From positions 6,324,001 to 6,388,000 of the forward strand of contig OZ005707.1 in the NCBI GenBank assembly GCA_963930775.1: a stretch of 64,000 nucleotides of DNA. The letters run 5' to 3'. The notes beneath the pieces are model-generated. The model was not told the origin of the DNA and ran no database searches. It saw nothing but the letters and a program-made list of their open reading frames with translations. Source of the stretch: Cliona cf. orientalis. Its lineage: Eukaryota; Porifera; Demospongiae; Clionaida; Clionaidae. Position 1 is the first letter of the stretch; each line of letters starts with the position of its first letter. Below, piece after piece: positions 3,185 through 53,923 of this stretch. The translations under genes and the position numbers were made by a program.

Positions 3185-6100
3185 ATGTCCTATTTCACCC
3201 TACTACTGCCATTATTGCTGCTCCTCATCATAACCTCAGCACATTCAAGGTCAGACTGACAGCACATCATGATCTTTATGACGTCATGATCATCTCATGT
3301 ATCTTCATAAACAGCATCAACCCGTGCCTGTACAATAGAGAAGACTACTTCCCATGCTTGGACTATTTTAATGCTGGAATTATTTCACCTGGACCAAAGT
3401 AAGTATCTGCTATGCTAGTGGCTCCATAAACTAATGAATCATTGAATGAAGAGATCCTCCCTTGTGTTTCATGCAGTGAGTACACCATCCACGCAACTCG
3501 TTTCCAAGGAAACTCAGTTGATGGATTTCCCATTTGTGTGAAGAGAAAGGAAGGCGAGATTGTGAGGAAGATCCAAGATCTTGGATCACCTTCCGTCAAA
3601 TTTTTATTCTCACCTGGTGCAGAGCAGGAACCAAGAATGAAGTGAGTTTCAGCTTTCTTGAGCTCATTACAGTATACTCATGCAATGGAGTCTCTATAGA
3701 TATTGTATACTTTTTGCAACCAATAATTATTATTGCATGGATACTGCCATGGCTGTGGCAGTGTAAAATGTAGTACATGAACACAACAAAACTATAGTAC
3801 TATATTAGGTACTATTCCACATAGATTAGTAGTACTATCATTCTGCAGTAAGCTTACACTCATCTATATACCTTGTCTGAGTTCAAATAAAATTAAAACA
3901 CTGGGAATGTAAAATATTATTATGCTCCTATATATACATGCAGCTACACCAATCAGATACTTGTGGAGTACAATGTGCAATGTAAACCAGGAGATACAGC
4001 CTTCATAAAATTTGACAGCCTTGACCTGGAATCAGAAAATTGTCATGATGGGATACAATTCAGGTAATATCATGCATGAATGTTACAATACAGCCTCTAT
4101 AGTGCTCAGGCTGTCTAGGTATACATGGCTCCTACTTGCATGTAACTGCAGATGCCGAGACTATGTTACAATTGATGCTGGTGCTGGTGGGAGTATGGAA
4201 TATTGTGGAAATGTAGTACCACCAAACCCCTTCATTGTAGGAACAGGTATTCTTGGACTATAAATGTAAAATTATTATTATTCCTGTTGCATTGGCTAAT
4301 AATACAGGGGTGTTCACTCTGAAGTTTCGGTCGAGTTTTTCTGACACCTATCCTGGTTTCCACATCTTTGTTACCTGCCTCAGTAGTGCAGGTATAATAT
4401 TATTATTAATATCATATCAAGTATTGGTACTATTGAAATGATGTTTTTTAATGCTAGAGTCCAAACAAAATGCAAAACGTACTTGCAATGAACCAGATCT
4501 AGTAGAGGTACGTAAGTTGAAATTAACTATGTGAGCATTGTTCTTCTGTAATATTATAGACAAAATGTGGAAACTTCATAATTTGATGTAGAATAATAAT
4601 TCTTCTTGTCCTATTACAAAACTCCTACCTTGATTGATTCTTACTAGCAATGAACTAGATGCATATTATTATTAGCTATTACTTTGTTGCCACAGAAATC
4701 TTCAACGATTGAAGTGATTAATTTAACTGAAGAAAGCCTTCGCAACAGAAGGGGATCAAATTCTCTGGTAAACAATTGTCAATGTTATGTACATAACCGT
4801 TGCATCTCATGCCATGCATCACATGCATGGGAAAAGGCCAGACATGTCTGTCTATGCCAAAACAGCATTTCTATGGAATTATTAAATCATATCCAGACCA
4901 TAATAAACATGCATGCATGCTGCCTACAATCTCGCACTACAGTTCAACCATGTATGCAAATATTAACTTTAGGGATAGTCCACAGTCACTGTGCACCCTC
5001 AACTACTAATAAAATAGTATCTGAGTGTGTATACTCACGTTCCAACAGTACACATATAGCTAACATAAATATAGCTACAGGCATTACTGTGAATAACTCA
5101 TGCATGCATATTATATTAGCTATACATTATCAATCCCATGATTATTTCGATCCTTTTTATAATTAGTTGCATGGTTGACAGTGAAAGTATATTTTTGCAG
5201 CAGGATAGGTAAATACATCAAATAGATCTACTTCACTCAACCTGAATTCAGGAAGCTCACACTTGTTAGTATAAAAGTAATATTGGACATTCCATTTCCT
5301 TCTATTTCCTACTAGCTTCTGTTGAATCAGAAACTCAATGCATGGTTGTAAAATCATTTCGATCCTTTGTAGTTGACAGTGAAAGTATTTTTTTTGCAGT
5401 AGGATAGATATATGCATCTACTTGAATTCAGGAAGCTCACACTTGTTAGTATAAAAGTAATATTGGATAACCTCAGGGAGCTATATAGTAGTATAGTGTC
5501 AATATGTTCAAAATTAATGTGATTAAGAAATTAATTTTAATGCCTGGGAATTTTGTGTGCAGTTTCATGGTTTCCATATTTACAAGCACCATAGTTCAAT
5601 AGACACTACATAGTGGACGCATGCACATGTCATGGCCTAGTAAGGCTTTTGGTTAACCCACTCAATTTATCTTTACATGGCATTCTATTGTGCAGCCTAT
5701 GACCTTGACGAGCACAGAAATGAGGACAATAGATAATCTGGCTGAATCACTGTTCACAGTTGCTCTCAGTAATGCTCGTCGCAGGGCAACGCACTGGCCA
5801 CCAGCCTCCTACTCAAAAAACGGTATAAGCTTAACTGAAATAAGTAAACGTCTAGCTTGTTGTTAATGGAATGTAAAAACAATAATATGCAGAACCTGGT
5901 GATTTTGATATATTCGATCTGATTGAATCTTCACTTGTTGCACCACAAACTCTTTTTCCTGTTCGTCGAAAGAGGAGATTGCTCACCAGGGAACTAAAGG
6001 GTAAACATTGATTGTCATGCATATGATATTTGGATTATATGATGTATACACAGAGCCAGCAAGTCTAGACAGTGGAGCAACTATGGAGGCTGTGAAAAAT

Positions 6101-6315
6101 GAAAATGCTTGCAATCCTATTGTCCGCTCAGTTGCTAGAAGCTACATCAGCGTTGCTGAAAGGTATAAAATTTATGATGCATCATCATAGCTAATGGTCC
6201 GAGAATACCAATTACTAAAAAATTTATGCCATTACATAGAGTTGATCCCATTCAATTGAAAGAAGCACAGAAGGAGCTAGAGAAAGAACCTCAATCACTA
6301 TCTAAACTGTCCTGA
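3185..6315 (+). CDS. Secreted CUB-domain protein with furin-type site, paralogue A
   Basis: About 12 exons. Exon 1 encodes a signal peptide (MSYFTLLLPLLLLLIITSAH). Exon 2 (near 3316-3400) carries NPCLYNREDYFPC. Exon 3 (3476-3642) carries HATRF, PICVKRKEGE and FLFSPGAE. The CUB-like domain follows: NQILVEYNVQC, CRDYVTIDAGAGG, EYCG, and PGFHIFVTC at 4350-4380, the last being the typical CUB ending. Downstream exons encode a small linker, then TLTSTEMRTIDNLAESLF (exon from 5696), an acidic exon ending in the basic stretch RRKRRLLTRELK (5893-6000), EAVKNENACNPIVRS, and a final exon ending at the TGA at 6313-6315. The RRKR is a predicted proprotein-convertase site. No membrane anchor seen, so a secreted protein is inferred. 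Function unknown; CUB domains usually bind proteins or glycans. The exon layout is the same in three paralogues downstream. Confidence 0.75.
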
Positions 6316-7598: not shown

Positions 7599-10500
7599 AT
7601 GAAATTCAAGACTCGCCACTTCCTGTGGCTCTTGCCTCTGCAGCTGCTGCTAGTATTGTTCCCCACTTCAGTAAATTCATTCACTCCCAAGCCACTGTAC
7701 AAACAGCAAGTTGTTGTGATTCTTGACGATGTTCCAACAATCCAAAAAGCAGGAAGGTTCCTTTATGGAAAACATGACACTTCATCACACATTCTCATGT
7801 GGAATGGAACAGCAGAAGAACTTGAGATAGCGGAATGGAATACAGACTCGGAGACATACGAAGGAGTACAAGGTTCAGGCCAACAGCTCCCTATTGGACC
7901 ACAGAAGACTTTCAGCTGGTCAGACACATTGATCCAGATTGTAGGCAGTGGTGATATAGACAACAAAAATTCTCCAGAAATTTCCAGATTTTCTGCTGAG
8001 AAATTAGCGACAGTGATCACTGGAGAGCTAACTCATGGTGATGTTGGTCGAATTGACATCATAGGGTATGGTACACATGAACATACAGCCACGTCTGAGC
8101 CACCTACATATTTGAGCCAGTTCATGTACACACTGAAGCAGTTAGGTCGACTCAATACAGCTGTAACTGTCAGAGCGAGCCTCGCATTATTGGACCATAG
8201 CGGAAGAGAGCTAACTGGCCAGCTTTTCCTGGGGATGAACACAACAGATATTGAATGGAATCATATGACTCAATTTGACACCTGGGTCGGGTTTTTCACC
8301 GGCGAAAACTACCAACTTGAACAATTAGCACCTAGTACGATTCTACAATCGCCATTCTTTGGAGTACTGCCAGGGGGGATAGAAGTCCACGTGACTGACT
8401 ATCAGAAGAAATCGGACGATGAAAATCCAACTGCATATGCTATGAATGATGAAACGGCCTTTGAGTGGGTAGACAGTGTCGCTCAAACAACGTATCAGGC
8501 CATTCCGAACGGTCGTGCTCCCTCAGTTTCGAGACGTGTGCAATTTTTACTTGACACCCAGGAGATCAGAGACATCTCTGTTACTGAAATTGGTAGTGTT
8601 GCTGATCTGCTAAAGGAGCTTCGCTACTACGGCGATAAAGGTCCCGCAGACTCCAACACCGAGAATTACTATCGTTTTGGAGATTGGATCGTCATCATGA
8701 ATGAAGCTGATTTCTATGTCACTGTGAGTGGTATAGTAGTCAGTTCGACTGATTCAAGTGTCAAGAGAGCTAAACTCGAGAATCTTCTCTCTGACTGGCA
8801 TGCAATTCCTGTCCTCTATCCAGGCATGCAACCAAGTACTGGTGCTAATTTCTTGACCGATGTGACTTCATGGATTAACGGAGAAAGTGGCGCCATTGGA
8901 CTGGAAATGGAGAATGCATACAACGCCCAGTGCGGAGTAGCGATGTTCCTCTCTGAAGCTATCCGAAGCTTCCATACCCACATCACCAACATGATGTCCC
9001 TTGATCTAGCTAACCATGGCTACCTGACAAAAGAGTATTTCTTCAGCTCTCATCCGATGGCTCGCAGGAGAACGTGGCAGATACACTATACAAATACTGG
9101 GAAGCAGAAGACGGGACTGGCCCTGCTACAAGACAAACTGGCAAGATCAGGTTTGTTTCCAGATGAAGACGTTCAAACAGTGTTTGATGAAATCATCCAC
9201 CGAATCTCTCGTATCAGCAAATCGTGGCTTTCACACATTGATAGCGACGAGATTAAGGGTTCAAGAGATCTTCCTCCAGCCACAAAACGGCAAGAGTATA
9301 GTCTTAAAGATGGTCTAGGCCTATTGGCTGTTTTAGAAAGCATCGGTTCCGTACCACCTGCGTCCAACACATTCCTACGAGAGTATGAACTCCATGAATC
9401 CTTCAATCGTCTCTTATCGTCAAACATATCCGAACCGGAAACAGGAGCTATTGGCACCCAAGTCATCGATTTTTCACACATAGACGATGTGACCTTACCT
9501 CTCCATGCTTCCATAGCGCTTGTGAATGACCATGCCTATGTGAGTGATCTTATCAGCCGTGAACTTCACCTGAAACAGCTTCATACTGGGAAGGTTTATC
9601 AAGTGGTACCCAATACGATTGAAGTTGACGATGAAAGCGATATCGTCAAATTCTTTGTAAAGGAGGTAGCAAACGTTTCAAGTGAGCTGGAGCAGATAGT
9701 AACAGAAATAAAGAAATTTCGCCTACAATCAAAGGCTTTGATTGAAAAATTTCTATCATTATCCAACAAGACAAAGAAATTCATCCCATGGCTTAAGAAG
9801 GGCGAAGGTCTCATAAATGCAGTGAAGGGAATATCTAGCTCTATTCATCAGCTTGAGAGTGGTAACCTGGTGGAGGAACTAAAAGGAGCATATCATCTTG
9901 GTCAGAACATTTACAAGATTGGTGACATCACTGGAATTAACAAAGCAGCTGGAGAGTATATCGGCAAAGCTCTGAAGAAGTTAACCGACGAAGCGAGTAA
10001 ATCAGTTGAATCATTTGCGAATGGTGTCGTGAAAAAAACTGAGGGAACAGTATCTTCCCTCATTGGAAAATTCAAAGAGCTGAAGGCAAAGTTTGCTCCC
10101 ATTATATCAGCAGTAGAGGGCATCTACAACATCTACGAGGACTTTAAGCAGCACACTACCCTCGGCTACATCAATGCAGCATTCGATATCGCTGAAACCG
10201 TCCTATCATTCTTTGGCCCCGAAGCCGCACCTTTTGAAGCAGCTCTATCACTGATCCAGATGGGGGTTGACTACTTTTACACGGACATCAGTAGAGAGCT
10301 TCATGCCCTTCCCCCGCACGCTTCCGTGGGTCGAATAGTTGTTGCCGTCCTCAAAGGGATATTCGAAGGAATTGTCGACATCATAAAACAGTTTCTACAC
10401 AACATCGACATCTTTGCAGTAATTGGTGATGCTCATAAGCTAGACAAGCAATATGACAATGATCGCAGGTTCCTTCAAGAATTATCAGACTACAGAAATT

Positions 10501-13500
10501 ACTTCGAGATATCGAGACTTAATGGATCGAATGTTTCGGAGATCAACTTTGCAGATGGAAGCGAATCGTGGAATGGAGGCGATATCACTTTCCGTTTGGG
10601 AGAAGATGGTCATTCTACTTTGACTATGGAAGGCGTGAATTCAGATGGCAATCCAACACATGCCAACGAGGTTATCAACACACCGGGAGTTGAAGATATC
10701 GTACTAGGTATTGGAGAGTCACACTCCGTCAGCTTTAAAACGGTAACAGTGAAATTTTTATTCTTCAAAGTTGACAGCAAGAGAGTAATATCTCGCGTTG
10801 ATGGTGAGAAGCAAACGCTGTATGGTACATACTATGGTAACTCCCAAAATAACAAATTCATTGCTGTTCAGGAACTTACGCCGCAGGCAGAAAAGAATCT
10901 AGGATACAATCTTCACGATTATCACTACACTCTTTACGGTGGGGGTGGAAATGACACCTTCTACCTCGGACCCCAGCCCACCTATGTCGAAGGAAACGAA
11001 GGCTCAGACGCCTACTTCATCAACTCAACATCCACGTTTACCGAAATCAACAGCCACGCTGGTGATGGACAGGGCGACACTATGATCATCAATCTCAACT
11101 ACGACCAGCTCACCGCCAAGAGGGAAGGACTCAACCTAAACCTAACATCATCAAACACACACAGGATAGTCATTCGCAACTGGTTCCATGATGTCACACA
11201 TCAGCGCATGGTATTCAAGACTGGAGATGGAGTTCTATTCAAAGTCTCGGCTACCATCACCGAAGCAGTAGATCTGATTGCCTACGCTCTAAGTGGCCAG
11301 GGCGCCACCAAATCAGGAGTGTATGACGCTCGTTTGCCACAATACTCGGAGGTAGCCACGATTGCTGGTTCTGAACACGATGATATTCTCTATGGCAACG
11401 ATCTTGATAACCAGCTCAATGGTGCTGGAGGCAACGACAGGCTCGTTGGAGGAGAAGGCCAAGATACATACAATGTAGATTTGGACAAAGGAGTCGACAC
11501 CATCGATAATTTCGCACTTGGAGGAGAAGTGGATACTCTAGTTATAGGCACAAGGCTCGATCAGTTGGCCTTTTCAAGCCACGAGGACAGTAATGATTTG
11601 TTCATATCACGTATAGAATCTACTGAGGATGAATCGAGTACACCCAGCACTGGTGCAACTATCTCCAACTGGTTTTTGAACAAAACCTATAGACATCTGA
11701 TTGTTGTTACTGAAGATAAGGCTGTGATCAAGGTCTCTTCTGTTAAGAACTCCACCGTCTCTTACCAGTCACTCATTGTCAACATGTCTCAAATTGAAGA
11801 GCAGCTAGCCGCACAGGGCATACCTTACTCGAGAAAGCTCGATCTAAACAGCGATCAAAAGTACTCTGCAGTCGTGACCGTATTTGGGACGCCATACAAT
11901 GACACCATTATCGGCAATGGCAAAGACAATTACATCACTGGAGGTCAGGGTTTGGACTACATCGAAGGGAGAGAAGGTGCGGATACTTATGTCGTCAAGG
12001 AGGGTGATGAAAGTACGACGATTCTAAACTGTGCCAAGGATACCAGTATGGACACGCTACTGCTCGCTGCTAAGTTTGACGACATAGAGCTACTGAACAT
12101 CTCAGATAGTGACTTATCGCTCATGGGAAATGATCTGGAAGTGATACTGAAGAACTGGTTTCACAGTAAAGAATGTCAACACTTATTGGTACGCTCAGCA
12201 GATGGAGTGACTTTCACACTGCCAAACGTAACGGCCATGGATTTGATGAAAACAGCAAAATCAGTCGATAACTCGAACCTGACCACTGATGTTCAGCTCA
12301 TCTTATCCGGGAAGTGGGCCACAGTGGAACATGTGACTGGGTCACAAGGAGATGACAGCATTCTTGGAAACTCCCTTGATAACTATATTGATCCTGGGCT
12401 AGGCAACTCATATCTACAAGGTGGCAATGGAAGTGATACATATGTCATTCGCTCAACCTATGGAGAAGACAACATCATCAATAACTACGCTGAAGACGAC
12501 TTAACAGACACTATTCTCTTTTTGGTGCCGTACTTAACCATTCAAATAGAGTTTATCGGCATGGACATTCGTCTCACATCACTCTCGGGCGATGGCCTAG
12601 TTGGTGTACGGATCATGGACTACAACTTTCATTTACAAGAGCATGCGCGCCACTTGGTAGTCACCACCAGCGATGGGATATCGTTTGTCCTTCCCGTAGC
12701 AAATGATACGACAACAAGCAGCAACTACAAACCAATTCCCATATCGATAAACATGGCTCAAACAACTACCGGACAGCACATGCACCTCACTGCGTACACA
12801 GATTTCACAGAGGTTCGTACGGTCTATGGATCTAGCAGATATCAGAATACCATCATTGGAAATGGACAGAACAACACGCTTGTGGGTGGAGTCAATGCAG
12901 ATTTGATACAGGGTCTAGACGGAGGCGATATTCTCAAAGGAGGAGACGGTAATGACGTAATTGAAGGAGGGTCCGGCGCAGATACTCTCGTGGGAGGTGA
13001 TGGTGACGATAATCTAGACGGAGGTGAGGATAATGATATAATCTCCCCAGGGTCAGGAACCAATCAAGTTGATGGTGGTTCAGGAACTGACACTGTGCTT
13101 TACAGTGGAGATGCCTCAAAAGAGGAAGGAATTAGTCTTGACTTAAGCACAAGGACTTGTATTCATGACGGAAATGCTCAAGACACCTTGAACAACATTG
13201 AGAATGCCTACGGGACTGAGTATGATGACGTACTTCAAGGAGATGACAAGGATAATGTACTAGTTGGCCAAGGAGGTAGTGACTATCTTGCTCCTGGATC
13301 TGGCTATGACATTCTTAATGGTGGCAATGGAAACGATACCTACGACCTGTCCACTGCCAATGGAACCGTCACTATTGAAAACTATGCTGATGATGGAACT
13401 TGGGATCTTGTGATCATGGGCTATGCCAATTTATCACACATCTGGTATGAAATCATGGGACATGATGTCATTATTCGAGCAATCAACATTCAGCATCCAG

Positions 13501-13793
13501 TTTTCTACGATGGAGACATGCCAGCTGTTGTCTTTAAGAGCTTTACGGTCAACTCAACATACCAACACATCACCCTAGAGATGGCTGACGGGAGTAGAGT
13601 CAACTTAGCTGATTTCATCACCGACAATCCTCAAACCACTCCCACGGCTGAGAGCCCCGCTAGTACTCCTGTTGGCTTGTACGTAGCATTGGGCCTGTTG
13701 CTCCTGACCTTGTGTGTGCTTCTAGCTCTCGTCGTTTTGGGAGTATACAAGCTTCGTTCGAAACGCACACTCAAGCGATACATATTGCTTTAA
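7599..13793 (+). CDS. Giant intronless membrane protein: C80-protease-like domain plus RTX calcium-binding repeats
   Basis: One 6195-base frame, 2064 residues, no introns. I start at the ATG at 7599 (MKFKTRHFLW), which gives a clean signal peptide of about 27 residues; the open frame extends upstream only to a TTG. Residues ~30-215 resemble the cysteine protease (peptidase C80) domain of large bacterial toxins: a QVVVILDD strand, GKHDTSS, VGSG (115-118), SRFSAEKLA, IIGYG (154-158) and VTVRASLALLDHSGRE. The usual catalytic His and Cys positions appear to be Ser117 and Tyr157, so it is probably inactive. A long middle region is unassigned; ~850-930 is hydrophobic and helical. Residues ~1110-1910 carry RTX/hemolysin-type GGxGxD repeats in several blocks, densest at ~1750-1840 (12850-13110), which bind Ca2+. 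A TM helix at ~2024-2049 and a short basic tail make it a predicted type I surface protein. Bacterial ancestry is inferred. Confidence 0.85.
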   Translation: MKFKTRHFLWLLPLQLLLVLFPTSVNSFTPKPLYKQQVVVILDDVPTIQKAGRFLYGKHDTSSHILMWNGTAEELEIAEWNTDSETYEGVQGSGQQLPIGPQKTFSWSDTLIQIVGSGDIDNKNSPEISRFSAEKLATVITGELTHGDVGRIDIIGYGTHEHTATSEPPTYLSQFMYTLKQLGRLNTAVTVRASLALLDHSGRELTGQLFLGMNTTDIEWNHMTQFDTWVGFFTGENYQLEQLAPSTILQSPFFGVLPGGIEVHVTDYQKKSDDENPTAYAMNDETAFEWVDSVAQTTYQAIPNGRAPSVSRRVQFLLDTQEIRDISVTEIGSVADLLKELRYYGDKGPADSNTENYYRFGDWIVIMNEADFYVTVSGIVVSSTDSSVKRAKLENLLSDWHAIPVLYPGMQPSTGANFLTDVTSWINGESGAIGLEMENAYNAQCGVAMFLSEAIRSFHTHITNMMSLDLANHGYLTKEYFFSSHPMARRRTWQIHYTNTGKQKTGLALLQDKLARSGLFPDEDVQTVFDEIIHRISRISKSWLSHIDSDEIKGSRDLPPATKRQEYSLKDGLGLLAVLESIGSVPPASNTFLREYELHESFNRLLSSNISEPETGAIGTQVIDFSHIDDVTLPLHASIALVNDHAYVSDLISRELHLKQLHTGKVYQVVPNTIEVDDESDIVKFFVKEVANVSSELEQIVTEIKKFRLQSKALIEKFLSLSNKTKKFIPWLKKGEGLINAVKGISSSIHQLESGNLVEELKGAYHLGQNIYKIGDITGINKAAGEYIGKALKKLTDEASKSVESFANGVVKKTEGTVSSLIGKFKELKAKFAPIISAVEGIYNIYEDFKQHTTLGYINAAFDIAETVLSFFGPEAAPFEAALSLIQMGVDYFYTDISRELHALPPHASVGRIVVAVLKGIFEGIVDIIKQFLHNIDIFAVIGDAHKLDKQYDNDRRFLQELSDYRNYFEISRLNGSNVSEINFADGSESWNGGDITFRLGEDGHSTLTMEGVNSDGNPTHANEVINTPGVEDIVLGIGESHSVSFKTVTVKFLFFKVDSKRVISRVDGEKQTLYGTYYGNSQNNKFIAVQELTPQAEKNLGYNLHDYHYTLYGGGGNDTFYLGPQPTYVEGNEGSDAYFINSTSTFTEINSHAGDGQGDTMIINLNYDQLTAKREGLNLNLTSSNTHRIVIRNWFHDVTHQRMVFKTGDGVLFKVSATITEAVDLIAYALSGQGATKSGVYDARLPQYSEVATIAGSEHDDILYGNDLDNQLNGAGGNDRLVGGEGQDTYNVDLDKGVDTIDNFALGGEVDTLVIGTRLDQLAFSSHEDSNDLFISRIESTEDESSTPSTGATISNWFLNKTYRHLIVVTEDKAVIKVSSVKNSTVSYQSLIVNMSQIEEQLAAQGIPYSRKLDLNSDQKYSAVVTVFGTPYNDTIIGNGKDNYITGGQGLDYIEGREGADTYVVKEGDESTTILNCAKDTSMDTLLLAAKFDDIELLNISDSDLSLMGNDLEVILKNWFHSKECQHLLVRSADGVTFTLPNVTAMDLMKTAKSVDNSNLTTDVQLILSGKWATVEHVTGSQGDDSILGNSLDNYIDPGLGNSYLQGGNGSDTYVIRSTYGEDNIINNYAEDDLTDTILFLVPYLTIQIEFIGMDIRLTSLSGDGLVGVRIMDYNFHLQEHARHLVVTTSDGISFVLPVANDTTTSSNYKPIPISINMAQTTTGQHMHLTAYTDFTEVRTVYGSSRYQNTIIGNGQNNTLVGGVNADLIQGLDGGDILKGGDGNDVIEGGSGADTLVGGDGDDNLDGGEDNDIISPGSGTNQVDGGSGTDTVLYSGDASKEEGISLDLSTRTCIHDGNAQDTLNNIENAYGTEYDDVLQGDDKDNVLVGQGGSDYLAPGSGYDILNGGNGNDTYDLSTANGTVTIENYADDGTWDLVIMGYANLSHIWYEIMGHDVIIRAINIQHPVFYDGDMPAVVFKSFTVNSTYQHITLEMADGSRVNLADFITDNPQTTPTAESPASTPVGLYVALGLLLLTLCVLLALVVLGVYKLRSKRTLKRYILL
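12850..13110 (+). repeat. Dense RTX nonapeptide-encoding tandem block
   Basis: Inside the large gene, consecutive ~27-base units encode GGxGxD-type nonapeptides (for example GGDGNDVIEGGSGADTLVGG). Further isolated repeat blocks lie near 10935, 11380, 11890, 12350 and 13240-13340. Such repeats fold as a Ca2+-loaded parallel beta-roll. Confidence 0.85.
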
Positions 13794-14310: not shown

Positions 14311-16482
14311 ATGAAGTTCTACGTAGCTTTATTTCTCTTCCTTATAGCCGCTGCTCCTTCAATGTCTCAAAGGTAAGTTGTATTAATTTTTGATACTATT
14401 CATTAATAATATTATTGTTTTTTCTGCTACTGCTCCATGCAGGTTTAATCCGTGTTTGTACAATAGAGAAGACGTTTTGCCTTGTACAGATTATGCTAGA
14501 AGGGGTGTTGCTTCACCAAGAGCCAAGTAAGACTAGTAGCTAATCACATGTCTAATTATGAGCAGAGCAGCATACATTGCTATCCAATTAATGTTACAGA
14601 AACATGCATGCATTGAGCATTGGATCATAAATATTATCAGCACTATTCTGTATTCATAATAATTTTTGTACAGCCAATACACAGTTCATGCCACTCGGTT
14701 TCGAAGGAACGCCCTTGGATATCCAGTGTGTGTTCTGAGAAAAGATGGTGAACTTGTAGCAGACATTGAAGATCTGGGCACGCCCGATGTTAAGTTCCTA
14801 TTCTCACCTGGAGCCGAGCGCAGCCCAAACATTAAGTGAGCTCACTAGTGATGTTGTAATATCTACATCCTGCCAAAAATGGTGACCTCTAGGGATCCAT
14901 GAAGAATAATGGCTCCATGGCCATCTCTAAACCATTGATCCTTTAAGGAGAATTACTTCCACTAATCTCTTATGCTTTTTTTTATAGCTATGCTAACCAG
15001 ATGGTGGTGGAGTATAACGTGCAGTGCCAAGCTGGAAAACTGGCGTTCATACAATTTGATAGCCTCGATCTTGAACCAAAGAACTGTTTTGACGGCACAA
15101 CCATGAGGTGAATGGAATTAAGATTACTACTGATCCATATAACATTCACTGTTTGCATGCTTAATTGCTACATAATTATGATGTATGCAGGTGTCAAGAT
15201 TATGTAGAGATTGATGCTGGTGCAGGGGGACGTAGTGAATTTTGTGGAAGTAGCTATCCCAAGGACCCCCTACTTGTTGGAACAGGTACGTATGCAAGTA
15301 TTTGAGTTAAGCTGCCTGCGTAGCTACTAGCATTATCTATGTGGTCATGCTATGATCATGCAGGGAAATTTACCTTGAAAATGAGGACCAGTTTCTTCAA
15401 CAGCTATTCTGGTTTTTGGATATCTGTGATATGCTTCAAACAAGAAGGTACTTAATAATAAATATTATCCTTAAAATTAATGCTCTCATTAACATGTATA
15501 GAACAAACGAGCCGGCCTAACTGTATTGATTCATCCGATGTAAGTATATTGGCTATAATTATTAGTGCATGATTTAAGTTTATACTAATCTTACCTTGAT
15601 CCAGAAAATCAAAGCTGCTGAGCTGGTCGATTTATCTGCATCCACAGGACAAAAACATTCAGTAAGCCAATTTAGGCTCGTTGGTTCATCAGAGAGATAC
15701 ATGCATGCACACAGTCTTGCTTTGATACTCCCCTCATCCAATTTATTGTACATACAGTCCATCACTCTGACCAGTACGGAGAAGAAAACACTGGAAAACT
15801 TAGCAGATTCACTGTACACAACTGCACTCCGCCAAGCTAGAAACAAGATTGCTTCATGGCCTCCTTCTTCCTACTCTCAGAACGGTATGCAGCTCAATAG
15901 CTACTCCCAGCACGCATAATTTCATGCTAACGACTATGTGAATGAGTGCTCCCATCTAGTTTTATCATATTACTTCCCAATTGCAGAAATAGGTGATATC
16001 TTAGATATCTCAGAATTGGGTGAGCCCAATCTTCCACCGATCAACATCCCAATATTGCCTCCTGGGGATAAGATAAAGTATCCGCCTCAGCCAATTATAG
16101 GACTGCCGGTCGAGAGAGAACTTGCGTATCGTAGAAGAAGATCACCTTTTGAAGGTATTCATGTAATATTTATTGGTACTAATGCTCATCGATCTGTCGT
16201 AACATATTAGTAGGTCAGGATCGTCTGAATAGCAAAGCTATAATGGAGGCAGTTAGGAATGAGAATTCCTGCAATTCTATCGTCCATTCAGCCACAAAGA
16301 GCTACCTGAGGGTCGCTCAAAGGTTTGTGCTAAGTTTGCTCAGAGTAACTACTATTATTTTACTATGATTCAATTTATCACACACATGCAGGCTTGAGCC
16401 CCATCAGCTAGAAAAAGCTCAACAGGAGTATCAGCTGGAAACCTCTCAGCATCTGAACAATAATCTTTTAGCAGCTCACTGA
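14311..16482 (+). CDS. Secreted CUB-domain protein with furin-type site, paralogue B
   Basis: Signal peptide exon 14311-14372 (MKFYVALFLFLIAAAPSMSQ). Exon 2 from 14443 encodes FNPCLYNREDVLPC. Then QYTVHATRFRRN, VCVLRKDGEL, FLFSPGAE, and the CUB core NQMVVEYNVQC, CQDYVEIDAGAGG, EFCG and SGFWISVIC. The linker is longer than in paralogue A and Pro/Ile-rich (PPINIPILPPGDKIKYPP) and ends in YRRRRSPFE, a predicted convertase site. The C-terminal module has TLTSTEKKTLENLADSLY, SWPPSSYSQN, MEAVRNENSCNSIVHSATKS and LEPHQLEKAQQEY, and ends with the TGA at 16480-16482. Same exon order and phases as its neighbours. Predicted secreted; function unknown. Confidence 0.78.
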
Positions 16483-16741: not shown

Positions 16742-19700
16742 ATGCAACACGAGATGACGTCCCACGTGTTGAATCTTCTGTTTCTGTTCCTTACAATAGC
16801 ACCATCAATATCTCAAAGGTGTGTTTGCATGTACAGGGATGGCTACATAATTCATTTTTGTGTTTTTCAATGAATATCAACCTCTTGCAGCTTCAACCCT
16901 TGCCTCTACAACAGAGAAGATGTTCTCCCTTGTTTGGATCATTTCAATACTGGTGTAGTCTCACCAGGAATCAAGTAAGTTTCCAATAGATAAGTCCCTC
17001 AAAAATAATGATCATAAAAATTAATCGTGCAAATTTATATGATGATGGTTGCATCATGTCATATAACGTGGTATTTGTTCTTTTGCAGCCAGTATACAGT
17101 CCATGCTACACGACTCCAAGGAGATCCACGGACAGGACTACCTATCTGTGTCAAGAGAAAGGATGGAGAGCTCCTTCAAGATGTTGAAGATCTAGGCAGA
17201 CCTCAGGTCAAGTTCCTTTTCTCACCAGGAGCCGAGCAGAGTCCTGCGCAAAAGTCAGTGAAATTAAAATTTAATAGTAGATATAATATTTGGCAGCTCA
17301 TGCTTTAAGTTTAAGCTACCTACTAACGCCAGGCTATTGACAAAGTAATCGTTTCTATGCAGCTATGCCAATCAGATACTAGTCGAATACAACATCGCTT
17401 GTGAAACTGGGCAGCCTGCTTTCATACAGTTTGAAACTCTCAATCTGGAGCCAAAAAACTGCGACCTCAAGTGAGAACTCAGTTCAGACGTTGACCTATT
17501 ATGCATGTAAGGATATCTTATGACGTGATTGGGTTTTTTTAGGTGCAGAGACTACATTGAAATCGACACCCTCACGGGAGGGATCCAGGAGTACTGTGGA
17601 AACAGTGTACCCGCTGATCCCTTCATCGTTGGAACAGGTGTGATCAATAAGCTAGATTTTTATTACTCAAACTTACGTGAGCTATGGTTACTATTGTATA
17701 TAGGGAAATTTACACTCAAGCTGAGGACTAGTTTCTTCTCCACCTTTCCTGGTTTTCGTGCATTTGTTACTTGTGTCAGTGCCAAAGAAATAAGTAAGAG
17801 AGAAAACTCATGAATTTTCCGATACACAAGAAGTTAATAACACCATAATAAATTTTCTATAGATCCTACTACTTGCACTGATTATGGAGGATCATTTCAA
17901 GTAAGTCATAGTATCTGATCAAATTAATAAAATTAATAATATTATGTTTATCTCCTTCATATTACTTTTTAGAAACGAGCTGCTGCCACTGAGCTCCTTG
18001 ATCTAGCTACCCTGCAGCCAGTGGAGGTCAATCTTGGAGCAGAATTAAACCTCGCCAAAAAACCCCAAGTAAGTGATGTGTGCAATGTGGAGACATAACA
18101 ACTCTATTCCATAATAAAGGAAGAATAGCTTATCGACAAGTTTGCCTGAATACTGCATGAAGATTTTTATTGACCATAATCACGTCAAAACGATTACCCT
18201 CAATTACATCATAGGGGTGGTATAATTATATTTAAGCTGTTTACAAATTGGAATTTTGTCTAAGTCAAGTCGGATAGTCCCATTGCCCAATTTGCACATT
18301 CCTCTCAGTCAACACCCCTTCTTGATCATGCAAAAGGTAATAAAAGGAATTATTGATCTGGGTGCTTTTTTCTGTGGTCCTAGCCATCTCCAAAAACAGC
18401 ATTTCAGTGGTCAACCATTCCAGCTTGGACGTGTGACCACAGATGTTGCTACACCCGTCCACTCCCACACAACCTCATATTTACAACTTTTTACCACATA
18501 CATCATGCATTATGCCACGTCACACACACACACACACACACCACATGCAGCCTTTGCCGCTGACTCTGACAAGTACGGAGAAGAAGACCCTCAACACTAT
18601 GATAGAGTCCCTCTTTAACGTAGCACTCAGCCAAGCTCGCCGAAAGATCCCCTCATGGCCACCCCTTTCTTACTCTCAGAATGGTGAGCATGCATTCTTA
18701 GCCTTGTCCCCCTCCCTCCCTCCCTACCCCCATTGCACACATACCCCCATGCACCCACATGATACCTCTTAATTTTGGCAGATTTTTTAGTGTTGCACAC
18801 TGGACATGGTGCTAATACCTTAGTAAAAGCAGCCATACTGAGAAACTTCACAATGTCATGTGGTTTATACTTTGGCACTGCTAATCTGTAACCCCTTGGC
18901 CTGCCTTGTATAATAATAAGATGAGCATGTAGCAATGTTATGTCCTGAGATTTGGTAATTAATGTCAGAGGGGAGTCATTTCGTGCCAATTAAATCACCA
19001 TTAATAATAACTGCATCCTTTGCACCTCACCTAGACCTGCAGGCACTGTATACCTATCCTGATTTCACTTGATTTTTTTGCTCAAAATCATACTAAGTCT
19101 TGCATTTTTTTCATAGAACCCAATGACATTCGCAGTCTTTCTCAACTGAGCTCGCTTACTCCCACACTCCGCCCACCTACACGTCCTCCTCCTCCTATCT
19201 CTCCGCTGCCTATCTCTCTTCCCCCTCCCATCTCGCTGCCACCACCACCAATTGATCCACCGGAGTTTGTACTCCTTCCAGTGCAACCCAGCCTTCAAGC
19301 TCGGCGTAAACGATTATCTATAACAGGTATGGACTTAAAGTTAAAAGTTAAACTCATTTTCAAAGCAGGAGCAGGAGTGGCCAAGATCAATTGCATACAT
19401 ATCCAACCACATTAGCCCTGAAAAATAAAATTTAATCAGAACTCCATAACCACACATATTTACAATTTCCTGGGACACCATTAATCATACTTCCTCTTCA
19501 GCCCACACATTGTCAATCAATAGTACCCTATGCAATACCAGAACCATTTAATGAAAAAATCCTCCCCCACTCACTCCCTCTCACCCACACAGGAAGCTTG
19601 AGCACAGTGCGTCTGAACAGTGAGGCTACGCTGGAAGCAGTCCGTAATGAGAATTCCTGCAATCCCATCCTCCGTTCGGTCACAAGCAGTTACCTCACAA

Positions 19701-19988
19701 TTGCTCAAAGGTCAGTTCACAAAGACCACTGATTCTGTAGCTAACCATCACAATCATGAGGGAAAAGTGAATCATTACAAATTGCTATAGCTAAGCCGCA
19801 TATAATAATTATAATCGTCATTCATTTTGACCTTTATGCTTTTTATATTCAGGTTGGAACCAGTACAGCTGCTATCAGCTCGAGAAGAATTCAAACAAGA
19901 ACTTGCCCTTCGACCTCCAGACAGCCTTGACTTGTCACAGGAGAAACTTGTTCAGCAACCTAATCAACCTCAGCTTCAGTTTCAATAG
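16742..19988 (+). CDS. Secreted CUB-domain protein with furin-type site, paralogue C
   Basis: Signal exon begins MQHEMTSHVLNLLFLFLTIA. Then FNPCLYNREDVLPC, QYTVHATRLQGD, CVKRKDGELLQDVEDLG and FLFSPGAEQS, and the CUB core NQILVEYNIAC, CRDYIEIDTLTGG, EYCG and PGFRAFVTC. The linker exon (about 19117-19326) is strongly proline-rich (PPTRPPPPISPLPISLPPP) and ends QARRKRLSITG, a predicted convertase site. The C-terminal module has TLTSTEKKTLNTMIESLF, SWPPLSYSQN, LEAVRNENSCNPILRSV and LEPVQLLSAREEF. A Gln-rich tail ends at the TAG at 19986-19988. Longest family member because of large introns; a (CA)n run lies just before the TLTSTEKKT exon at 18521. A poly(A) signal AATAAA follows at 20064. Confidence 0.78.
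18521..18540 (+). repeat. (CA)n microsatellite
   Basis: Ten CA units in an intron, about 10 bases before a splice acceptor (ccacatgcag). The run could act as part of the acceptor's pyrimidine tract and vary in length between individuals. Confidence 0.9.
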
Positions 19989-20063
19989 AACCGCTAGCTA
20001 CTTTCACCCTACTACTCTAGCTACTTTAATTAATATTGCCAATTCTTGTGATATAATAGTGTA

Positions 20064-20271: not shown

Positions 20272-23087
20272 ATGTCTCACATAATAATATTATTGAATCT
20301 GCTTTTCCTATTCCTCATAAGTAGGAGTAGAGGTCTACCATCAATATCTCAAAGGTTTGCAATGTTATTGAGCATGCTACAGCATCTAGCAAGCATAAGC
20401 TATATTATAACTTTTAATATCAACCTGCAGCAGTATAGCAGATCCAGAGCCATCAGTACCTCAAAGGTGAACTTGACTGCCCATTGTATTGAAATAATAT
20501 TAATGATGCCGTGCAATTATCAACCTGCAGCCAATATCCACGATTCAATCCGTGTCTTTATAACAGAGAAGACTTTCTACCTTGCAGAGATCATGGGAAT
20601 GCTGGCGTAATCTCACCAGGACCCAAGTAATTATAATATACTTAATCCATTGACCTTTAAACATGAATACCGGTAGTATCATATTCTTGCAATTGTATTC
20701 ATGATTTGCAGCCAGTATACAGTTCATGCTACACGATTCCAAAGACATCGACGGACAGGAAGACCTATCTGTGTCAAGAGAAAGGATGGAGAGCTCCTTC
20801 AAAATGTTGAAGATCTAGGCAGACCTGAGGTCAAGTACCTTTTCTCACCAGGAGCCGAGCGAATTCGACCAGAAAAGTGAGTAAAAGCAATAATACAGCC
20901 AGAATAATAATATTATAGTGTCGGATTTCTGTTACAGCTATGTCAATCAGATGTTAGTGGAATACAATATTGTATGCGAAACTGGACAACCAGCCTTCAT
21001 ACAGTTTCAATCTCTTAGCCTCGAGCCAAAGAATTGTGAACGAAGGTGAGAAAGGAACGCAGATGAGAGAAATTTATTGATAACAGTTTCACGGTGTTTT
21101 AGGTGCAGAGACTATGTTGAAATTGACACTGGCGCAGGAGGACGCATGGAGTTCTGTGGAAACAACAAACCCAATCATCCCATCATTGTTGACAATGGTA
21201 TACATGAGCTATAGCTAGTAGGCTATTCACTAATAATACTGCTGCTGCTGTGTAATATTATACCATTTTCAAGCCCATAATGAGAAATTTTATCCTGCTA
21301 TGTAACAGGTGCATCTTTCATGATCTACCATGTCCTTTATGCAGCTGTTTACATCTAGTGGTATATAGCCTTGCTACACTGTATTGAATTCACTATGCTT
21401 ATAATAGGGCGTTTCACTCTCAAGCTGCGGACTAGCTTCTACTCCAGCTATCCTGGTTTCCGTGTGGTTGTGATATGTGTCAGTAACAGAACAATAAGTA
21501 CGTACAAACATATATTATAGTTATGGAAACACATAATTATAATTATTATAGTCAATCATCACTTTTTTACTTCATATAGACCCCAATACTTGTCATGATT
21601 ATGGAGGATCACCCCGAGTGAGTACATAAAGTAAAATTCAGTGGCCTGTGTGATAATACCGTGGTATTGTCTTCAATTCCTGTAGAACCGTCGTCGTGCC
21701 CCTCTACGTACTGACGAAGATCCAGAAGATTTTGATGAACGTCGTGTACTACACTATGATGGTGATCAACCACCCAACATCAATAGATCTCCAGTGAGTT
21801 GATGCATATAGCTACATGAGTAGCTAACTGGTTCAAAAAATAATTACTGTGTGTGTTCATTGAATGAGACTATTTCAAAGAAGACAGTGCGATTAATAGT
21901 TTTACTAACAGAAAAAACTCCCATGATCATTGAACGAAACTGTGGCTAGTGTATTATAATATACCAAGTGGAGTAATAACTACAATCCACAGTATTTATT
22001 ATCCTTGACTTCTACCTACCCCACATATTCCAGTTTCGATTTTAATGCACCACATGAACATGTATATACTGCTATACTATAATACAGGCTCTTTCCCTGA
22101 CAAGTGCCCAACAGGAGTCTCTTTCAAGCATGGCAGACTCCCTCTTTGACGTAGCTCTCAACCAAGTCCGTCGAAAGGTCACCTCATGGCCACCCCACTC
22201 TTACTCTAGGAACGGTGAGCAGTATATAGCTACCATCATCTCCAGACCTTTCCCATTTTCAATAATAATTATTATAATTAATTTATTATTATGTTAGCTA
22301 ATAACTACCTTTGTTGTTAAGCAATTGCATCTCACCTTAGCAATGTACAATGTCATGCACTCCAATGAATGGCCGATATTTTTATTATCTCATATGCAGA
22401 TCCCGATGATATTCGCTTTCTCTCTGAGCTAGACTTTCAGCCCACGGTACGTCCACCTACACCACCTCCAGTTCCACGCACTCCCTCTCTTCCTCCTTAT
22501 CCACCTCGCCCTCGCCCTCACCTGCCGTTAGGTCCAGATTACGCTGCCCGTCGCCCAGTTAGGCGCAAAAGAGTATCTACACTACAAGTGTCAGGTATGG
22601 ACTAAAGAAATATCGATTGTACGTACGGGACTGATTCATGATATTATCGATTGTATGGTTGTTTGTGACAAAAAAAACGCTTCATCAATTTTTACCTGTT
22701 GTGAATTAATTTTAGTTTGCCGCCTATATGCACTAATTAAAACCGCTATACTGTCGAGGAAGAAGCCTCTCAGTCTCACACTCTCTCTCATCCATACAGG
22801 CCCAGACAGAGTGCAGTTGAACGCCCTTGCTACACTGGAAGCAGTGAGAAATGAAAATTCTTGTAACCCTGTTGCTCATACTATGTCATCCAATTACCTC
22901 ACCATTGCTGAAAGGTTGGCTTCTAAAACATTACCGCGTCTCCTATATAGAACTAATACAGACTGGTACAGTATCATCACTATCTCTGTATTATTTTGTG
23001 TGTACATGCAGGATTGACCCACGACAGGTGCAAGCAGCTCAAACACAGTTCCGAGCAGAACTCGATGTCCCTGAATTTACACCTTAG
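20272..23087 (+). CDS. Secreted CUB-domain protein with furin-type site, paralogue D
   Basis: Signal exon 20272-20354 (MSHIIILLNLLFLFLISRSR). A 36-base in-phase optional exon appears at 20431-20466, a partial duplicate of the signal-exon end (CTCAAAG then donor). Exon from 20531 encodes QYPRFNPCLYNREDFLPC. Then QYTVHATRFQRHRRTGRP, ICVKRKDGELLQNVEDLG and YLFSPGAERI, and the CUB core NQMLVEYNIVC, CRDYVEIDTGAGG, EFCG and PGFRVVVIC. The linker is proline-rich (PTVRPPTPPPVPRTPSLPP), ending RRPVRRKRVSTLQ, a predicted convertase site. The C-terminal module has LTSAQQESLSSMADSLF, SWPPHSYSRN, LEAVRNENSCNPVAHT and IDPRQVQAAQTQF. It stops with the TAG at 23085-23087. Predicted secreted; function unknown. 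Confidence 0.78.
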
Positions 23088-26602: not shown

Positions 26603-27833
26603 ATGGATAAAGTTCTTGTGAATGCGGTGATCACTGATTTCTTCATACAATACGGCCTGTTCCTCATTGCGATATACCTGAGGACAGAAAAATTCTTTTT
26701 CCTTGCTGGATCCGCCACGTTCTTCGTGACTGTTCAATCTCTCTTTACAGGAACAATGTACCCCAGGCAGGTTAGTGGGCTGATTTATTAATACCCATAG
26801 CTACATCTACAGATGATAGGCCAGGGTATGGCGATTTATGTGTACAGTGGCTGATCCTGGGGTGGGATGGATAGGGTGGCTGGCCACTCCATCTTTTAGA
26901 CCTGGCTCAATTTAGGAGGGGTGTGGTCAGATTAAAACAGTGGGTAACTGTTTTTGTACAAATTATACAGATAGTGGTGGGGGAGGCTAGATTATGAGCC
27001 ACTTTACTCCTTGATAATGCAATGATTCTATCTACACTTGTCTCACGGCAGGTGATTCAAAGCACTCTGGTGAGCGTATGGGGAATGCGTCTCGGACTGT
27101 TTCTGATTGCCCGTATGTGGCGAGATGGCCATGATTACAGATTCAACCAAGCCAAGAAAAGTCCCATAATATTCTTTGCCTTCTGGACTGTAGAAGGTAT
27201 ACTACATGTATCTAGTAAGGTGTAGCATAATAAGTTGTTGTTTTTTTTTTTCAAGGTATATGGGTATGGGTGATCCTCCTTCCAACACTGATCGTCAACT
27301 CCAAAAGTGTTGACACAAAATTTTGTGTGAGTGACTACATAGGTTGGAGTCTATGGTTATTTGGAATGTTGCTGGAGTGTGTGGCAGACTATCAAAAGTA
27401 CGTCTTCAGAGGCGAATCAGCGAACAAGTACGTTGATATGAGATATCTCACACCAGCAAATCATGTATAAACCTATATATATACCTCAGGGACAAATGGA
27501 TAAGCCATGGGCTTTGGAGAGTCGTCCGTCATCCAAACTATCTTGGAGAAATTGTACTCTGGACTGGTCTTTTTATTTCAGCATCATCAACGTTTACAGA
27601 GGTACACAGAATCTGTATCATTAAAGCTAAAATCTATATCAAGAGTATTTGTATATATTTTTCAGGGTTGGGAGCTACTAAGTGTGATCTCTCCAATATT
27701 CGTCGCCTTTCTGTTGACTTTTGTGTCGGGAATTCCACTTTTAGAGAAGCTGAATGAGGAGAAGTGGAAAGGGAACCCACAGTATCGCCAATACATGAAG
27801 AACACTCCAAAACTCATTCCCTATCTTTACTAA
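26603..27833 (+). CDS. DUF1295 / steroid 5-alpha-reductase-like membrane enzyme, copy 1
   Basis: Five exons: 26603-26770, 27052-27196, 27256-27427, about 27491-27600, and about 27666-27833. Several hydrophobic helices are visible (FFIQYGLFLIAIYL; WVILLPTLIV; WSLWLFGMLLECVADY). The exon-4 motif WRVVRHPNYLGEIVLWTGLF is the signature of the 5-alpha-reductase/ICMT-like C-terminal fold that binds cofactor. The C-terminus is GNPQYRQYMKNTPKLIPYLY. Family knowledge: DUF1295 proteins are predicted membrane oxidoreductases, mostly with unknown substrate. It is the most diverged of three tandem copies. Confidence 0.75.
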
Positions 27834-27999
27834 AAGAATATACCATGACATTACATTCCAACTGACTCCTATGCATATTTCATCCTATACAATGTCGTAA
27901 TAATTTATTAACACCCCGCCCCAAGTCCCCTTGCATAAAGTGGGTGTGGTCACAAAATTTCCGCCCGGATAAATAATCTTGGCCATAGCCTCTGACAGT

Positions 28000-29362
28000 A
28001 TGGGGAATGTTCTCGCGAAGGCCGCAGTCACCGACATGGCCTTGCATTGGGGCCTCTTTCTCATCGCGGCCTACCTCAGGACGGAGAAGTTTGTCGACCT
28101 CGCTGGATGCAGCACCTTCATCTTGCTCGCTATCCAGTCGCTCCTCAGCACCAGAAAACTGTTCCCCAGACAGGTAGTACCTGTATTAATGTGGTAGTAT
28201 AAATACTTTCCAATTATACCGTCAGAGGTCTATTATGAAGACGCCATGGGCCATCAGGGATTCGGTAAAGGGTCGTTACGTTTAATTTGTAGCCTCAAGT
28301 AAAATAATGACATTGTTTGAATTTCACATGTACAGTTGATTCAGAGCAGCCTTGTGTGTATGTGGGCCGTCCGGCTTGGACTGTTTCTTATCATGCGAGG
28401 GCTACATGCCAGCGATGACAGCTGGTTCAATAGAAACATCAGGGATAACCCAAAGAGATTCTTCATCTTTTGGACATTGCAGGGTACTATAATAATAATA
28501 ATACTGGTAAATATCCCATATCCCAATTCAGGCTCCTCCCAGTTTGGATAACAGAGAACCCTGGGAGGAGCGTTGGGGATGAGCTAAATTGAACCACCAA
28601 TGCCAAGATGTACTAGATCAGCATTTCCAATTGTGTATTGAATTTACTCCCTGCAGGTCTGTGGGTGTGGCTGACCCTCCTCCCAACTCTCATTATCAAC
28701 TCCAAGCGTAAGGACAAAGAGTTGTGTACCAGAGACTATGTTGGCTGGGGGGTGTGGCTGGCTGGAATGCTGATGGAAGTTGTTGCAGATTACCAAAAGT
28801 ATGCCTTCAGGAGCAACCCAGCTAACAAGTAAGTCACATAAGACACTATTTTATATTATGCGTTTTAGCACAAAAAATTTCCATGATTGTAGTGTATTTT
28901 TACCACTAATGAGCCAGAGCATACAATTCACACTCGATAAATGTTCAACCCTTAAATCACCTATTCGAAAATTATTGAAGCTTAACTCTGCTGTTTTTAG
29001 GGAATTGTGGATTAGCCATGGGCTTTGGAGCATTGTTCGTCATCCAAACTACCTTGGAGAAATCCTTCTCTGGACTGGTCTTTTCATTTCTGCTTCATCC
29101 ACTTTTAAACAGGTTTATCTATAGCATTATATATACCACCAAAAGTTTAACAATTTGTAGATTGTATTATGATTAAGATTACTTCATTTTATAGGGCAAG
29201 GAGTTTCTGAGTGTGCTGTCCCCAATCTTTGTGGCATATCTCTTGACTCGTGTGTCAGGAATACCAATCCTGGAGCGACAAAACTGGAAGAAGTGGAAGG
29301 AGAACCCTCAGTACCTCCAATATCTGCAGAACACTCCTAAACTTATCCCTTTCCTGTATTAG
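28000..29362 (+). CDS. DUF1295 / steroid 5-alpha-reductase-like membrane enzyme, copy 2
   Basis: Same five-exon structure as its neighbours. Starts MGNVLAKAAVTDMALHWGLF; exon 2 begins LIQSSLVCMWAVRLGLFLIM; exon 3 begins LWVWLTLLPTLIINSK; exon 4 has SHGLWSIVRHPNYLGEILLW; it ends NTPKLIPFLY and TAG at 29360-29362. Much closer to copy 3 than to copy 1, so the 2/3 duplication is younger. The intron at about 28490-28660 carries a hairpin (28532-28571). Confidence 0.75.
28532..28571. repeat. Intronic hairpin
   Basis: gctcctcccag (28532-28542) pairs with ctgggaggagc (28561-28571); the arms extend imperfectly outward. Not present at the matching intron position of copy 3, so it is an insertion or local rearrangement after duplication. 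Confidence 0.6.
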
Positions 29363-29393
29363 TAGTAAATTGCACGCATGCGTATTACGACTC

Positions 29394-29406
29394 TTCCCGC
29401 CAAAAG
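29394..29406. promoter_or_regulatory. E2F-like word upstream of DUF1295 copy 3
   Basis: ttcccgccaaaag, the same word as at 26441-26453, about 100 bases upstream of the ATG at 29507; a GC palindrome gcacgcatgcgt lies just before it at 29372-29383. Confidence 0.35.
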
Positions 29407-29506
29407 TCGAGTTTTGTTGCGCATGCTCGAGCGCTTGTATCCAATTTTAGCACCCCCGCCCCTGAACAATCCCTTTCTGTTTGTGGGGATCGAGCGAAGT
29501 ACAAGT

Positions 29507-41782: not shown

Positions 41783-43138
<1,356 letters not shown>

Positions 43139-53618: not shown

Positions 53619-53923
53619 TAGCATATAGCAGCACACACTCCACTAGTCATTTTTTGAATATCTTCTTCTATCTTTTGTCGAAGTTATTATGCATTTTAAA
53701 GTCTCATCAATTAGTAAAATGAAAACTTTGCATGTTGCGTTGGGAACGGAGACAAGATTCTTGCATTAAACTCCAATAATAACAATTATGAGCCACTGAT
53801 TCAGAAATAAATACTTAATATCTACTAGAGCAAGATATGAAAAGTTTAATATAAAACGGCAAACTTCTACATGGACGATTTCATAACAAAAATATAGCAA
53901 CATACTAAGTGATCTTTGCTACG
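53619..53923. other. Convergent intergenic gap, with poly(A) signal
   Basis: AATAAA at 53806-53811 suits the 3' end of the collagen gene. No coding. Confidence 0.5.

Follow-up and report, generated by a model that had tools for sequence, protein, structure and literature searches.

How does a protein that carries a Peptidase_C80 domain and RTX repeats, each typical of bacteria, come to be encoded in a sponge, and what might it do there? The question is raised by a stretch of 64,000 nucleotides from Cliona cf. orientalis (hereafter the window, meaning the whole stretch analyzed; coordinates without a contig name refer to it), in which positions 7599..13793 of the plus strand form a single coding frame of 2064 codons plus stop. 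A sequence-only reading of the window had described this frame as uninterrupted and had proposed that the gene was acquired from a bacterium and refitted for the cell surface of the host. We confirmed that the frame runs from an ATG at 7599 to a TAA at 13793 with no interruption; given the window's own stop frequency, the chance of a stop-free run this long is about 1e-50. An acceptor-like splice site at 7583 may mark a junction in the 5' UTR. The answer that we consider rather probable is that a bacterial-type RTX/C80 gene was anciently acquired by the sponge and duplicated, and that it now encodes an extracellular, calcium-stiffened adhesion or recognition protein.

A C80 domain without cysteine and five RTX modules

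When the 2064-codon protein was searched against Pfam, Peptidase_C80 and RTX scored above their cut-offs, as the sequence-only reading had anticipated; three other families stayed below theirs, and no pore-forming family of Pfam was matched. NCBIfam returned eight families, every one below its cut-off, with the best stretches within residues 1428-1987. From its N-terminus the protein is made up of a probable signal peptide (residues 1-28; 7599..7682; read by eye and from hydropathy), the C80 domain (residues 34-204; 7698..8210), a region of no recognised family for which plasmid and viral contig searches gave no match (residues 205-736; 8211..9806), a stretch with hydrophobic segments at residues 868-886 and 911-929 followed by a pre-RTX part (residues 737-1106; 9807..10916), five RTX modules whose boundaries were drawn by us (10917..11348, 11349..11876, 11877..12335, 12336..12800, and 12801..13628, the last with the longest run of strict GGxGxDxU nonapeptides), a transmembrane (TM) helix predicted from hydropathy (residues 2026-2050; 13674..13748), and a short basic tail of stop-transfer type (residues 2051-2064; 13749..13790), all on the plus strand. 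Four cysteines are present in the ectodomain of 1,999 residues.

The C80 match (E 3.7e-9; 37.5 bits against a cut-off of 23.8) covers positions 3-151 of the 154 in the profile and scored 42.8 bits in a genome-wide profile search; the assignment is a comparison with the Pfam family profile rather than with individual C80 sequences. A sequence search of the PDB with the C80 region gave no match. In C80 peptidases the catalytic residue is a cysteine. Counting revealed no cysteine in residues 34-204, nor in residues 29-444, and the domain therefore has no cysteine-peptidase mechanism; an active C80 cysteine protease was rejected on this ground. We infer that the domain is degenerate and non-catalytic, with its conserved fold put to use as a binding head.

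The RTX family (HemolysinCabind, PF00353) matched eight stretches of the protein (E 2.1e-28), which contain nine strict nonapeptide repeats. Genome-wide profile searches, in which the best candidates were scored (14 for RTX) and the counts are therefore lower bounds, gave at least one C80 match and at least eight RTX matches, all of them in the window gene or in the one paralogue described next. Among 14 control genomes, a set that is uninformative on animals, C80 was found in none and RTX in two, both bacteria.

An RTX paralogue joined to animal modules

A whole-genome search with the window protein revealed one relative (E 1.9e-130), an RTX gene with Sushi, SRCR-like, and fn3-like modules on the minus strand of the 11.3 Mb contig C6 (C6:1315050-1323569), whose frame has 2508 codons. 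Residues 737-2031 of the window protein are common to both (29% identity over 1384 BLASTP columns; range 29-33%), and no BLASTP alignment was obtained N-terminal of residue 737; the N-terminus of the C6 paralogue differs and has no C80 domain. In the searches made, residues 737-1106 were common to the C6 paralogue alone. After the RTX block, and in the same frame, the C6 paralogue continues into four Sushi stretches above cut-off (E 2.4e-19); its SRCR match fell just under cut-off (26.0 bits against 26.1) and its fn3 match under cut-off as well (19.1 against 25). By these profile matches the RTX scaffold is combined with animal domains in this copy. A predicted GT-AG splice, whose donor came 6th among 482 GTs and whose acceptor lies 516 bases further along, joins in phase to a predicted last exon of 169 amino acids that ends in a stop and matches no recognised family; since this exon is without a membrane-grade segment, the C6 paralogue looks secreted.

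Comparison of the RTX modules revealed that the module in the same place gave the best score for four of the five. Because the modules are largely collinear, one five-module ancestor for both copies is the simplest reading of the alignments. Since the C6 paralogue continues in frame into Sushi modules, the two genes, judged by their sequences, are a small domesticated family and not contamination.

Residence in the sponge genome

In an assembly of 149 contigs that totals 216.8 Mb, the window occupies an interior position on contig C19 (6.32-6.39 Mb of 7.2 Mb). Five CUB-like genes in the same orientation flank the C80/RTX gene, copies 0 and 1 upstream and copies 2-4 downstream. Copy 0 is seen in part, as C-terminal exons at 899-1406; the other extents are approximate and come from tblastn blocks on the plus strand: copy 1 (multi-exon) at 3316..6163, copy 2 (multi-exon, with a first exon that looks signal-peptide-like by eye) at 14311..16323, copy 3 at 16895-19714, and copy 4 at 20544-22966. 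CUB blocks were observed in copies 1-4, split by introns, at 3316-4245, 14447-15284, 16895-17636, and 20544-21190. The CUB label is weak, as all three stitched peptides fell below the Pfam cut-off (E 4e-4, 7e-4, and 0.044). The exon peptides were located by crude exon chaining, which merged neighbouring genes and passed straight across the C80/RTX gene, and gene extents were not taken from it. The earlier statement that neighbouring genes are split by introns is borne out for the CUB-like genes, the ones closely examined. Because intron-bearing, same-strand CUB-like copies stand around it, the C80/RTX gene lies within an animal gene array.

Copies 0 and 1 match each other in places along their 3' portions and spacers, at about 80-93% identity, and they share one segment, roughly 165 bases long, in opposite orientations (1048-1213 and 5823-5978). 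Similarity between the 3' flanks of the two copies persists to about 6625 in that of copy 1 and then ends. Each flank of the C80/RTX gene was also searched separately for insertion marks, a procedure whose reach does not extend to a duplication shared by both flanks: the 5' flank gave no repeat, and in the 3' flank there were two direct pairs, both short, and an inverted one, all chance-like.

Third-position GC was 0.45 in the window gene, 0.29 in the C6 paralogue, and about 0.37 in the CUB-like blocks, the last figure being rough because tblastn blocks take in some intron sequence. With these values, the window gene is not clearly recently foreign by composition.

The identity of the host is supported by contig C149 (19,633 bases), a complete-looking mitochondrial genome with frames in which TGA encodes tryptophan, cox, cob, and nad proteins recognised by eye, an atp9 frame that matches ATP synthase subunit C (E 1e-12), and 26 ARAGORN tRNA calls over three stretches (made under bacterial rules, one of them labelled SeC), tRNA-Arg(tct) among them. 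According to excerpts of one paper, which still counts Homosclerophorida as demosponges, demosponge mitochondrial DNAs measure 16-25 kb, carry extra tRNAs such as trnR(ucu), and contain atp9 in all 22 analyzed except Amphimedon queenslandica (PMC2444032). On this comparison C149 supports a sponge as host of the assembly. The tandem array of multi-exon genes, the position in the interior of the contig, and the demosponge-type mitochondrial DNA together uphold the claim that the gene resides in a sponge chromosome.

Bacterial relatives of the RTX block

Of 72,556 plasmid records, 190 were matched at E 1e-5 in a tblastn search with the whole protein. Among the best 20 of these 190, identity was 23.6-28.1%, all matches were confined to residues 1076-2007, and the annotation was calcium-binding protein in 14, VCBS protein in one, and none in five. 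In two of the three plasmid records that we opened, the next gene encodes a type I secretion permease/ATPase, which is absent as next gene in the third; the open frames in the three records each exceed 3000 residues and hold 0-1 cysteines. The closest PDB entries by sequence were likewise bacterial RTX proteins, matched through the RTX block. By family, then, the RTX block is of bacterial type; we do not claim a donor.

The phage search returned two short unannotated records, through the RTX block only (MT839220.1 and MT839290.1; 4.4 kb faecal sequences labelled "Bacteriophage sp.", matched over much of their length), which are possibly mislabelled bacterial fragments. No relative was found among 50 and 7 pattern hits in viral contigs, and a plasmid search with the 917-residue N-terminal stretch of the C6 paralogue gave no match. 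A contig scan with the region shared by the two copies gave one match among 113, to a frame that resembles an Allorhizobium FAD-dependent oxidoreductase (translation read by eye) and that we took as false; a PDB sequence search with the same region gave three chance-level matches and no structure above chance.

Predicted membrane topology

Topology was judged from hydropathy and reading by eye rather than with a signal or TM predictor. Residues 2029-2047 form an outstanding hydropathy peak (mean 3.15) with the basic tail after it. The N-terminal segment at residues 7-25, which we called a signal peptide by eye, has a hydropathy of 1.69, and the segment at 868-886 a modest 1.24. The likeliest reading of this profile is a type I membrane protein, probably with a single TM helix.

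Proposed origin and role of the gene family

We propose that a gene for a large secreted RTX protein of bacterial type, with a C80-like N-terminus, entered the sponge lineage long ago. It would have gained a signal peptide and, in the window copy, a C-terminal anchor as well, such that the N-terminal signal peptide replaces the type I secretion system (T1SS) route and the membrane helix replaces the type I signal region. The gene would then have been duplicated, the second copy having lost, or never had, C80 and having acquired Sushi, SRCR-like, and fn3-like modules. At the cell surface, millimolar calcium of sea water or mesohyl may load the nonapeptide loops, upon which the five RTX modules would fold into beta-rolls, and the folded rod may keep the N-terminal region, with its degenerate C80 domain, at a distance from the membrane, where it could serve as a binding head, either in adhesion or in recognising symbionts or microbes. 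By analogy with teneurins, the protein most likely acts at the cell surface in adhesion or recognition, stiffened by calcium. A bolder version, which we put forward tentatively and regard as possible but doubtful, is a teneurin-like history in sponges: one ancient transfer of a bacterial C80/RTX exoprotein would have founded a family of receptors and matrix proteins built on calcium rods, with the enzyme domain kept as binding head and a sister copy fused to complement-type Sushi/SRCR modules. The family would take part in the calcium-dependent surface chemistry with which sponges adhere or tell symbionts from other microbes.

Several observations weigh against this proposal. The internal segments at 911-929 and 1639-1657 score 1.64, close to the 1.69 of the putative signal peptide, and because they are nearly as hydrophobic, a single TM helix is probable rather than established; of the type I topology claimed earlier, the C-terminal helix and basic tail stand out clearly, but the word "single" is weakened, and the signal peptide has its hydrophobic segment in its favour but near equals inside the protein. 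N-glycosylation sites number 24 in the window protein against 18.5 ± 3.8 in shuffled sequences (199 of 2000 shuffles reach 24). They are enriched in the C6 paralogue (26 against 14.9 ± 3.5; 3 of 2000 reach 26), and one bacterial relative is denser still, with 82 in 3649 residues; since the window protein is not clearly enriched and a bacterial relative is denser, the sites do not discriminate, and we rejected their enrichment as a mark of eukaryotic secretion. Module 2 is not collinear: its score with its counterpart (138) is lower than with module 3 (144) or module 5 (145) of the C6 paralogue, whose own module 2 pairs best with module 3 of the window protein (184). Plasmid searches with residues 1-736 and with residues 737-1184 gave no match, residues 205-736 had no match in the searches made, and a whole-protein scan of genome contigs gave nine pattern hits and no relative; across plasmids, phages, and viral and genome contigs, no bacterial donor with this domain combination was found. 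Of the original inference of bacterial acquisition, what stands is the C80/RTX architecture in a sponge chromosome, strengthened by the Sushi-bearing paralogue, whereas the direction and the donor of transfer are not established.

Four other explanations were weighed. The family may instead be old in animals or eukaryotes and vertically inherited, perhaps with loss elsewhere, which would make its bacterial origin remote and not a transfer specific to sponges. It would be old because its two copies, the window gene and the C6 paralogue, are only about 30% identical; the composition is not clearly foreign, and our searches covered the sponge's own genome, plasmids, phages, and viral and genome contigs, with no eukaryote collection among them. 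But the own genome shows only two RTX genes among the best candidates scored, and we consider vertical inheritance unlikely. A second line of descent for the gene would involve two independent transfers from related bacterial proteins, giving rise to the two loci. That BLASTP finds nothing to align N-terminal of residue 737, that only one copy has C80, and that third-position GC differs (0.45 against 0.29) would fit such a history; the region 737-1106, common to both copies and found nowhere else in the searches made, together with the collinearity of four of five modules, favours a single ancestor in the host, and we give two transfers very little credence.

As to function, the protein could be a sponge toxin that forms pores or kills, either tethered to the membrane or shed, with the hydrophobic stretch at about 868-930 inserting into membranes as in RTX cytolysins. 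The order of parts, namely C80, hydrophobic region, and repeats, resembles that of large bacterial exotoxins, and there are two hydrophobic segments, at 868-886 and 911-929. Their hydropathy is modest (1.24 and 1.64), however, the hydrophobic region matched no Pfam pore-forming family and, by sequence, no PDB structure above chance, the C80 domain has no cysteine, and a type I anchor fits display better than release; a toxin is thus quite improbable. The thought of bacterial contamination or an assembly chimera arises from the typically bacterial nature of C80 and RTX and from the match of the RTX block to bacterial plasmid proteins, but the gene lies inside a 7.2 Mb contig, among tandemly arrayed genes of the same strand that have introns, and at the second locus, on another large contig, the RTX frame continues into Sushi modules and a predicted GT-AG intron. 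We rejected it on the array context and the Sushi-bearing C6 paralogue, and leave it almost no probability. An ancient acquisition from bacteria followed by duplication and use at the cell surface is the reading that we retain.

Other features of the window

When 30 open stretches of the window were scanned with Pfam, only a deaminase was recognised, because exons are short, and no exporter gene was recognised among these stretches. The deaminase is encoded in a single frame of 174 amino acids at 41786-42307 on the minus strand (MafB19-deam 74.7 bits; dCMP_cyt_deam_1 73.9); its best NCBIfam model, TadA, scored 81.5, under the cut-off of 150, and by sequence it is most likely an ordinary tRNA deaminase of ADAT2/TadA type. 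Three tandem copies of a membrane-enzyme-like gene with the motif WISHGLWxxVRHPNYLGEI, which we take to be DUF1295-like, lie at 27345-30695. Strong GC skew (+0.16 to +0.20) and AT skew (+0.12 to +0.16) are sustained over 48000-54000, and GC skew is -0.27 at 18001-20000.

Comparison with known systems

In MARTX and large clostridial toxins, C80 serves as the autoprocessing domain. The window protein matches the same profile but differs from these toxins in its cysteine-free domain, and no effector domain was recognised in it with Pfam or NCBIfam. Its nonapeptides start only after residue 1107. In MARTX toxins, glycine-rich repeats at both ends flank the effector domains; the comparison covers the nonapeptides, and no search was aimed at the 19-20-residue repeats of MARTX.

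According to excerpts of one paper, RTX repeats bind calcium, remain unfolded or loosely structured while calcium is as low as in the bacterial cytosol, and take up their fold outside the cell, the proteins being exported via a C-terminal type I signal (PMC3034196). With the bacterial RTX exoproteins of T1SS the window protein has in common the GGxGxDxU nonapeptides, the glycine- and aspartate-rich modules, and a near absence of cysteine. It differs in its animal host, in its probable N-terminal signal peptide, and in its C-terminus, where by hydropathy a TM helix and basic tail stand in the place at which the bacterial proteins carry the T1SS signal. Compared with animal Sushi/SRCR/fn3 proteins, the C6 paralogue carries Sushi, and SRCR and fn3 matches below cut-off, appended to an RTX scaffold, whereas the window gene itself is without any such modules.

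Transfer from prokaryotes has precedent in sponges, 227 putative genes having been reported in the demosponge Amphimedon queenslandica (PMC4784904, in excerpt). The main text of that paper, supplements aside, has no occurrence of RTX, hemolysin, or C80 in the parts available, and that of a second transfer paper, again without supplements and in part, no mention of RTX or hemolysin. We found no description of an RTX/C80 sponge gene among the open-access papers listed, a weak negative, as most subscription papers lie outside that scope.

The closest functional parallel is with teneurins, animal adhesion receptors of bacterial toxin-like ancestry (excerpts of PMC5851990 and PMC13018210). In both cases a large scaffold of bacterial toxin type, obtained by horizontal transfer, would serve as a membrane-anchored animal ectodomain; the analogy is one of working and implies no kinship in sequence, and it is by this analogy that an adhesion role is suggested for the window protein. 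The scaffolds are unrelated, RTX/C80 here and YD repeats in teneurins, and the window protein is predicted to be type I, whereas teneurins have type 2 topology (PMC5898268, in excerpt). If our proposal is true, sponges display a second such scaffold, unrelated to that of teneurins, and the route from toxin scaffold to surface protein would be a repeatable one in animals that live intimately with bacteria, with the window gene and its C6 paralogue as two concrete candidates for calcium-dependent adhesion or symbiont recognition.

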